A stretch of DNA of 64,000 nt from Insolitispirillum peregrinum (GTDB taxonomy: Bacteria > Pseudomonadota > Alphaproteobacteria > Rhodospirillales > Rhodospirillaceae): the NCBI RefSeq assembly GCF_900156605.1, contig NZ_FTOA01000003.1:310001-374000 (forward strand), given 5' to 3'. The notes beneath the pieces are model-generated. The model saw only the letters and a program-made list of their open reading frames with translations. It was not told the DNA's origin and searched no databases. The position numbers and the translations under genes are program-made. Positions within the stretch are counted from its first letter, which is position 1; each line of letters starts with the position of its first letter. This document shows positions 36,467-39,506 of the stretch, piece by piece.

Positions 36467-37642
<1,176 letters not shown>

Positions 37643-37666
37643 CTAACTGTTGTTCATGGGGCAAGG

Positions 37667-37902
37667 GAATCGTTTTCCCTCGAACCGAGTCGCACGTCAA
37701 GAGTCGTTGCGACTCGGCATGAATCCACCGAGTCGCATTTTAGGGTCCCAAAGCATGTCTGCATCACAGTATTTTGTGGAAAAGCAAGGCCAAAGGCACA
37801 CGGGATAGCGGGTCTGTGACAAAAGAGTCACAGCAATAAAAAACAGATTTTCAGGAATCATGCCGAGTCGCTCCGAGTCGCGAACGGGTGTTTTTGCGAC
37901 TC
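37667..37902. promoter_or_regulatory. Cluster of eleven GANTC sites upstream of ccrM
   Basis: GANTC occurs at 37667, 37687, 37701, 37711, 37721, 37730, 37825, 37855, 37865, 37875 and 37898. Chance predicts about one in this length. Six of them lie in a longer shared motif, CCGAGTCGC or its complement GCGACTCGG (two slightly shorter). The cluster directly precedes the gene whose product should methylate these sites. Confidence 0.75.
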
Positions 37903-37950
37903 TGGGCGATGGTTCAGAATGTGAAGCGGCTCGCGTCGCAGGGGGCTTGA

Positions 37951-38109
37951 GCGAAAACCGCTACCCACGTTTCGTATGATGCTCTGGGCTTTTGTATTGC
38001 CGCGTTGTTTTTGCGAAAACCGGTTCCCACTTTTCACACAACGCTCTGGCCTTTTGTTCTGTCGCGTTGTTTTTGCGAAAACCGGTTCCCACTTTTCACA
38101 CAACGCTCT
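37951..38109 (-). repeat. Tandem triplet of the short dispersed repeat
   Basis: There are three head-to-tail units: a short diverged one at 37951-37985 and two nearly identical ~61-bp units at 37986-38046 and 38047-38109. Each has the core GCGAAAACCGGTTCCCACTT and ends ACAACGCTCT. They lie between the ccrM upstream region and pmbA and push pmbA away from any upstream promoter. Confidence 0.85.
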
Positions 38110-38165
38110 ATACCCGAAAGGGAACACCATATCGACCGCCTGTCTGGCGTGGGGGAGTTGCGTCT

Positions 38166-39506
38166 ATGTCCGATACCCTGTCGTTGCTTGACGACCTGAT
38201 TACCGCCGCCCGCAAGGCCGGAGCCGATGCCGCCGATGCCCTGTTGCTGGAAGGGCGCTCGATTTCGGTAGGGTGCCGGTTGGGCAAACTCGAGACGCTG
38301 GAGAGCTCGGAAGGTGGGGATATCGGTTTGCGGGTGCTGATCGGCACCCGCACCGCCATTGTTTCCTCAGCGGACCGCAGCAAGGCGGCGCTGGCCGAGC
38401 TGGTCGAGCGGGCCGTTGCCATGGCCCGTCTGGTCCCCGAGGACCCCTATGCCGGTCTGGCTGATCCTGAACAGATTTTCCGTGGTCCGTACCCCGAAAT
38501 TGACCAGTTCGATCCGACCGAGCAAACCGCCGAACAGCTGATTGCCGCCGCCACGCTGGCCGAACAGGCGGCGATGTCGGTCAAAGGCGTGACCAATTCC
38601 GAAGGCGCCGAAGCCGGTTGGGGCCACTACACGGTGTCGCTGGTCGCTTCGAACGGTTTTTCCTGCTGCTATCCGTCGTCTGGTTCATCGCTGTCGGTGG
38701 CGGTGCTGGCCGGGGATGCCGAACAGGGGATGGAACGCGATTACGATTATACCTCGGCGGTGTATGTCGGTGATCTGCGCACCCCCGAAGATGTCGGGCG
38801 CAGTGCTGGCGGACGGGCCGTGCGGCGGGTGGGGGCCCAGCGGGCCAAGACCTGCAAGGTGCCGGTGATCTTTGACAACCGCGTTGCCCGTGGTGTGGTT
38901 GGTCATCTGCTGGGGGCAATCAGCGGCCCGTCGGTGGCGCGGGGCACCACGTTCCTGAAGGACTCCCTCGGGCAGCAGATTTTTGCCCCGAACATCTCGA
39001 TCATCGAAGACCCGCACCGGGCGCGCGGGGCCCGCTCCAAGCCGGTGGATGCCGAGGGGCTGGCAACGGTGCGCCGCAAGCTGATTGATCAAGGCGTGCT
39101 GACCACCTGGTTGCTTGATTTGCGCTCGGCCCGCCAGTTGGGGATGACCCCGACCGGCCACGCCGCCCGTGGAACCTCGTCGCAGCCGTCACCCTCGCCG
39201 GGGAACGTCTGGCTGGAAGCTGGCGAGCGTTCGGTGGTCGACATGATCGGCGAGATCGAGCAGGGCTTTTATGTCACCGAAGTGTTCGGGCAGGGCGTCA
39301 ACGGCGTGACCGGCGACTATTCGCGCGGGGCGTCGGGCTTCTGGATCGAGGACGGTGAGCTGACGGTGCCGGTCAATGAAATGACCATCGCCAGCAATCT
39401 GAAGGACATGTTCCTCAGTCTGGAAGCCGCCAGCGATCTGGACATTCAGCACGGCACCGATGCACCGTCGGTGCGGGTGGCGGCGATGACGGTGGCCGGG
39501 GCCTGA
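38166..39506 (+). CDS. pmbA: PmbA/TldE, metalloprotease subunit
   Basis: This 446-residue protein of the TldD/PmbA family opens SLLDDLITAARKAGADAADALLLEGRSISVGCRLGKLETLESSEGGDIGLRVLIG. It ends with the conserved GASGFWIEDGELTVPVNEMTIASNLKDMFL. TldE pairs with the zinc subunit TldD to degrade unfolded or leader peptides, for example in microcin maturation and CcdA turnover. As expected for the E subunit it lacks the HExxxH zinc site. tldD is not in the window. Start 38166 is used because the in-frame extension upstream reads through the tandem repeats. Confidence 0.92.
   Translation: MSDTLSLLDDLITAARKAGADAADALLLEGRSISVGCRLGKLETLESSEGGDIGLRVLIGTRTAIVSSADRSKAALAELVERAVAMARLVPEDPYAGLADPEQIFRGPYPEIDQFDPTEQTAEQLIAAATLAEQAAMSVKGVTNSEGAEAGWGHYTVSLVASNGFSCCYPSSGSSLSVAVLAGDAEQGMERDYDYTSAVYVGDLRTPEDVGRSAGGRAVRRVGAQRAKTCKVPVIFDNRVARGVVGHLLGAISGPSVARGTTFLKDSLGQQIFAPNISIIEDPHRARGARSKPVDAEGLATVRRKLIDQGVLTTWLLDLRSARQLGMTPTGHAARGTSSQPSPSPGNVWLEAGERSVVDMIGEIEQGFYVTEVFGQGVNGVTGDYSRGASGFWIEDGELTVPVNEMTIASNLKDMFLSLEAASDLDIQHGTDAPSVRVAAMTVAGA

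Follow-up and report, generated by a model that had tools for sequence, protein, structure and literature searches.

A GANTC cluster upstream of ccrM in Insolitispirillum peregrinum as a probable regulatory region read through CcrM's own methylation

The ccrM gene of I. peregrinum, coding for a GANTC adenine methyltransferase, is directly preceded by eleven GANTC sites located at positions 37667–37902 of the window, i.e., of the whole stretch of 64,000 nucleotides analysed. Judged from the sequence, the cluster probably constitutes the ccrM regulatory region, read by GcrA together with sigma70 and by way of CcrM's own methylation, and CcrM very probably marks and tunes its own promoter. The evidence comes from the density of the sites, from the geometry of the ccrM core promoter conserved across Alphaproteobacteria, and from the set of regulators encoded in the genome.

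The GANTC cluster and its surroundings

The cluster lies between ccrM, transcribed from the minus strand, and a divergent PmbA/TldD gene (38166–39506). The assignment of the downstream gene as that of the GANTC methylase, proposed in the first-pass annotation, is borne out by the N6_N4_Mtase and RAMA domains of its product and by the 61–81% identity of the latter to the CcrM proteins of the other Alphaproteobacteria compared. The same annotation had pointed to eleven GANTC sites crowding this region, and exactly that number was counted, with starts at 37667, 37687, 37701, 37711, 37721, 37730, 37825, 37855, 37865, 37875, and 37898. They fall into two groups with a 95-bp step between them. The elements of the locus are as follows:

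36467–37636, minus strand: ccrM, GANTC adenine methyltransferase gene (N6_N4_Mtase PF01555 and RAMA PF18755)
37667–37734, no strand assigned: proximal GANTC group, six sites (site count)
37775–37783, minus strand: TTTTCCACA, DnaA-box-like, matching TTWTNCACA, between both GANTC groups
37825–37902, no strand assigned: distal GANTC group, five sites (site count)
37685–37904, no strand assigned: six copies of CCGAGTCGC/GCGACTCGG, one with a mismatch (sequence match)

GANTC is depleted in the window outside the cluster: the whole window contains 79 sites compared with 217 ± 13 in dinucleotide shuffles, and its next densest 236 bp hold three. The eleven sites of the cluster stand against 0.25 expected, and a count of eleven or more has a Poisson probability of 5e-15 if the rate of the window itself is taken and of 1e-9 with that of the shuffles. 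GANTC clusters were also located genome-wide by a pattern search for three close GANTC, which returned isolated single places along with two where many matches overlap. The latter, the densest GANTC clusters of the genome by this search, are the ccrM upstream region and G000:C17:170195–170478 (locus L132, 1696–1979), where 284 bp hold eleven GANTC, interspersed with DnaA-box-like repeats. The second region lies between hemE and a kinase/pyrophosphorylase gene and carries TGTGGAT/TCCACAG repeats; on account of these repeats and of the hemE neighbourhood it is regarded as the putative oriC. In three relatives of the family the putative oriC region has 6–8 GANTC per 236 bp, unlike in most other genomes, and oriC clustering as a rule for the class was rejected, since it holds for this genome and 3 of the 29 others.

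Other crowded places were noticed in passing. In two other families of the order, 13–14 GANTC crowd an intergenic region (L171 1513–1745; L173 1192–1589), among the matches listed, between a gene for a small protein of unknown function, located downstream, and a second gene in divergent orientation. In I. peregrinum itself, three GANTC, one of them within the 9-mer CCGAGTCGC, are found about 600 bp upstream of dnaA (L134 1609–1658; G000:C10:373108–373161).

The longer motif shared by a part of the sites, CCGAGTCGC/GCGACTCGG, had been assigned to six of them; five copies are exact and the sixth (37896–37904) is CAGAGTCGC, with one mismatch. The 9-mer is not a common repeat: the count run over the genome (4.64 Mb) gave 20 exact copies versus 30 for the reversed control, and five of the 20 are in the cluster.

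Several further elements of the intergenic region were considered. The TTWTNCACA consensus, matched by TTTTCCACA, is found in 6/72 ccrM regions, against 0.02 expected per region. A REP-like element, GCGAAAACCGGTTCCCACTTTTCACACAACGCTCT, is present in three copies with a 62-bp period at 37951–38109 of the window and in about 228 copies genome-wide; Rfam yielded sub-threshold matches only, to REP-like repeats (a part resembles BASRCI408). An RNA hairpin was rejected: the minus strand of 37637–37740 folds better than shuffled sequences (z −3.6), owing to palindromic sites in opposite orientation, and this segment lies mostly upstream of the putative transcription start.

The ccrM core promoter

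The upstream regions of 110 ccrM loci were compared, 99 of which remained after removal of near-duplicates. For the 99 loci the mean density within 400 bp is 11 GANTC per kb, the sites lying mostly 25–100 bp before the start codon. At least three GANTC per 236 bp are present upstream in 75/99 loci and at least six in 29/99, and inside the ccrM gene only 11/99 loci reach three per 236 bp. An absence of the cluster from close relatives, which the first-pass annotation had named as evidence against its own reading, is therefore not what the comparison gives overall; it is the size of the array that is highly variable. The counts in the ccrM regions of relatives range from 0 to 9 per 236 bp, the eleven of the window being the largest, and the array is small, nearly absent, in Haematospirillum-type relatives. 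As it varies from nearly absent to nine or more sites, the upstream array cannot be essential.

What is conserved is the geometry of the core. Of 72 non-redundant ccrM upstream regions, 32 contain a −35-like TTGAC followed by GANTC within 8 bp (TTGAC-N1-8-GANTC); the remaining sequence of these loci predicts 0.008 per region. The commonest form of this element is the 24-bp pattern TTGAC-N3-GANTC-N6-GANTC, for which 385 genomes of the class gave 58 matches, compared with three in the reversed control. Its use is nearly exclusive to ccrM: when each region was compared with CcrM, 46 of the 58 matches proved to lie at the ccrM start, on the same strand, and 12 did not; some true ccrM start codons are later than the starts extrapolated from the longer N-terminus of the query. 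Represented among the 46 promoters are 28 CcrM proteins with less than 75% identity. Every one of the 46 carries A at +24 and T at +28, corresponding to −11A and −7T with a 17-bp spacer (45/45 in the non-redundant ccrM set), and both bases are found in only four of the 12 other matches. Since −11A and −7T were not part of the search pattern and yet are invariant, they provide independent evidence of a sigma70 promoter. In 46/46 cases one GANTC lies in the spacer at about −27 and the second abuts the −10 element. Class-wide, the ccrM core is thus very probably a sigma70 promoter that carries its two GANTC at these places.

The same type of promoter, with two fixed GANTC and −11A/−7T, was also seen before ftsK (two matches) and before ribonucleotide reductase and M23 peptidase genes (the L257, L259, L258, and L255 set). 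In I. peregrinum itself, TTGAC-N2-4-GANTC was considered as a regulon marker and dropped; the 30 of its 68 matches that were examined lie mostly in long open frames and have no −10, and no regulon is claimed.

The core of the window is a variant of this promoter. Read on the minus strand from 37705 down to 37667, it is GACTC-TTGACG-TGC-GACTC-GGTTCGAGG-GAAAAC-GATTC, with the following elements:

37701–37705, minus strand: GACTC immediately upstream of the −35 element (a GANTC is likewise placed in five relatives)
37695–37700, minus strand: TTGACG, putative −35 element (class-wide TTGAC)
37687–37691, minus strand: GACTC in the putative −35/−10 spacer, inside a CGAGTCG GcrA-type motif (sequence match)
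37672–37677, minus strand: GAAAAC box, putative weak −10 without the −7 T, 17 bp from TTGACG
37667–37671, minus strand: GATTC just downstream of the putative −10 (site count)

The −35 and the spacer site agree with the class form, from which the core departs in the gap after TTGAC, N4 instead of N3, and in the −10-like box; both departures count against the proposed reading. A scan for consensus promoters finds nothing at this core, GAAAAC being at the right spacing but without the −7 T common to all 46 class-wide promoters, and the class-wide promoter profile does not score it either. GAAAAC may be a weak, activator-dependent −10. In 4 of 73 family genomes TTGACNNGCGACTCG-N7-9-GAAAAC occurs once per genome, each time upstream of ccrM and nowhere else.

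Nine GANTC, including the abutting one, are situated upstream of the −35 of the window, several of them at 9–10 bp steps. Across the ccrM loci, GANTC sites upstream of the core are 9–11 bp apart in 19 cases compared with 10.2 in jittered controls, an excess reached in 2/1000 of the latter, and spacings of 14–17 bp are rare. This hints, modestly, at binding to the same face of the helix. A general helical phasing of all GANTC was rejected, as part of the first signal came from the core, whose steps of 11 and 7 bp are fixed; with the core removed the 9–11 bp excess is smaller, still present. In two relatives (L102 and L104) the core promoter is preceded by an inverted repeat, CACTAAATTTAGTG, which is a possible regulator site.

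Candidate readers of the methylation state

The genome encodes GcrA (PF07750 at G000:C4:798697–799053; 134.9 bits for the whole protein), a sigma70 cofactor reading GANTC methylation (PMC7403470; PMC3667746). Its extended motif is YGAKTCG (PMC7987155), which is fitted by the CGAGTCG core of the 9-mer and is present as CGAGTCG in five sites of the array, including the spacer site at 37687. The first-pass annotation had taken the longer motif as pointing to a specific DNA-binding protein; the best-matched candidate is GcrA, with the reservation that conservation across the class extends to the core geometry only and not to the 9-mer. CtrA is unlikely to act at this promoter, as there is no TTAA in the intergenic region (37637–38168) and hence no CtrA box (TTAA-N7-TTAA). 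Across the class such boxes and the TTGAC-GANTC core seldom occur together: the core is found in 2/18 ccrM loci with a CtrA box versus 30/54 loci without one (Fisher P 0.001, in a test on 72 loci that ignores phylogeny and base composition).

The following scheme is proposed for I. peregrinum. The product of CcrM activity, m6A in GANTC, would be written into the ccrM core promoter and its immediate upstream DNA. The sigma70 form of RNA polymerase would use the TTGAC −35 flanked by GANTC, one of them in the −35/−10 spacer, where GcrA could bind and read the methylation state. Passage of replication would leave all eleven sites hemimethylated, a state that might permit a burst of ccrM transcription, and newly made CcrM would re-methylate the sites, so that the promoter would be damped and closed. 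With many sites spaced by about one helical turn, the shut-off might require the whole set to be finished, so that the pulse would limit itself more sharply. Of all the steps, the sign of the feedback is the least certain; what the extra upstream sites do is presumed. The earlier suggestion that the promoter can sense its own methylation state fits the conserved GANTC inside the ccrM core as well as the reports on Caulobacter, in which ccrM is transcribed only from the hemimethylated chromosome (PMC2217572) and is "most probably" itself affected by methylation (PMC3973325). The gcrA promoter region of Agrobacterium tumefaciens, whose activity falls upon methylation (PMC11514494), also speaks for the scheme.

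Methylation could also act on RNA polymerase directly, without GcrA, m6A in the spacer or next to the −10 altering promoter opening or binding and CcrM thereby repressing or activating its own gene. In the class-wide promoter two GANTC do touch or flank the −10 and −35, and methylation lowers the activity of the A. tumefaciens gcrA promoter (6 GANTC in 250 bp) even in E. coli, i.e., in the absence of alphaproteobacterial regulators (PMC11514494). Nevertheless, GcrA is encoded here, the sites match its extended motif, and the spacer position is that of the GcrA/methylation-type promoters of Caulobacter, so a purely direct effect is considered unlikely, if the strongest of the alternatives.

The properties of GcrA itself allow the loop to be drawn with the opposite sign. 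In vitro GcrA binds fully methylated DNA most strongly, above hemimethylated DNA; at ctrA P1 hemimethylated on the plus strand it gives a small footprint at the −35, and at the fully methylated promoter a footprint across it (PMC3667746). It also stimulates open complex formation at methylated promoters (PMC7403470). Given this preference, methylation could activate ccrM rather than damp it, which speaks against the scheme proposed above: GcrA–sigma70 would work best on the methylated promoter, CcrM would be self-sustaining, and the timing would come from GcrA cycling and CcrM proteolysis. Such a positive loop would not close itself, however, and the reported firing of Caulobacter ccrM from the hemimethylated chromosome alone (PMC2217572) makes it rather improbable.

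A sequestration similar to that by SeqA, in which some protein bound to hemimethylated GANTC arrays silences ccrM and oriC after replication, is more doubtful still. It would account for ccrM and the putative oriC being the two densest GANTC clusters of the genome and for the tendency of upstream sites to be 9–11 bp apart, and it has a parallel in the GATC clusters at oriC and dnaA of E. coli, which act with Dam and SeqA. However, a SeqA homologue (PF03925) is absent from the genome, the E. coli control being positive, and the clustering of GANTC at oriC is confined to this genome and 3 of 29 others, whereas that at ccrM is widespread. Least probable is that the array is covered by MucR or some other protein and thereby kept unmethylated, so that the sites record occlusion rather than serve read-out: two MucR proteins (PF05443) are encoded, and MucR shields GANTC in Caulobacter and Sinorhizobium (PMC5172544), but ccrM is not among the shielded loci in the passages covered, and promoter function accounts better for the conserved core.

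Relation to known systems and significance

The proposed reading by GcrA–sigma70 and CcrM methylation relates the ccrM promoter of I. peregrinum to the GcrA/CcrM-associated sigma70 promoters of Caulobacter, among them ctrA P1, mipZ, and podJ P2, with which it shares a GANTC downstream of the −35, here between the putative −35 and −10; in the methylation-associated promoters of Caulobacter the GANTC is at −28/−29 (ctrA P1) and −24 (podJ P2) (PMC4287350). The coupling of methylation read-out to replication, as in the ctrA P1 type, would be shared as well, and GcrA is encoded in I. peregrinum. The differences lie in the regulated gene, in this case the methylase gene itself, and in the number of GANTC: two or three in the core or next to it and a larger number upstream, compared with one. 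The ccrM promoter of Caulobacter is that of the same gene and is likewise methylatable (PMC2217572), but it is activated by CtrA, whereas ccrM of the window has no TTAA half-site. The Agrobacterium gcrA promoter (PMC11514494) is also a GANTC-dense promoter of a cell-cycle regulator that responds to methylation; the gene is different, however, and the methylase does not feed back directly on its own gene in that case. As in E. coli, dense methylation sites are found at oriC and at one regulatory promoter, the motif and the enzyme being different, SeqA lacking, and the clustered promoter belonging to the methylase gene and not to dnaA.

Methylation-responsive sigma70/GcrA promoters and the GANTC sites in the Caulobacter ccrM promoter (PMC2217572) are known parts of this picture. 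GANTC counts upstream of cell-cycle genes were published by Brilli et al. (2010), who drew no conclusion for ccrM (PMC2877005). No description of a class-wide ccrM core with two fixed GANTC or of arrays this dense was found in the part of the literature covered, and their novelty is provisional.

It may be tentatively suggested, at somewhat less than even confidence, that a dedicated, self-methylated sigma70 promoter with the fixed register TTGAC-N3-GANTC-N6-GANTC-A-N3-T drives ccrM in a large part of Alphaproteobacteria, mostly lacking a CtrA box. It would constitute a direct loop of the writer onto its own promoter, which may predate CtrA control, and dense upstream arrays like that of the window would tune it as a multi-site counter of re-methylation. 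Earlier work has not settled the timing of CcrM where a CtrA circuit of the Caulobacter type does not operate. The self-methylatable conserved core, with its two fixed GANTC, provides a concrete and mutable element in many lineages, in which the sign and the sharpness of the feedback can be tested, and it suggests an evolutionary switch between self-methylation and CtrA control of ccrM.
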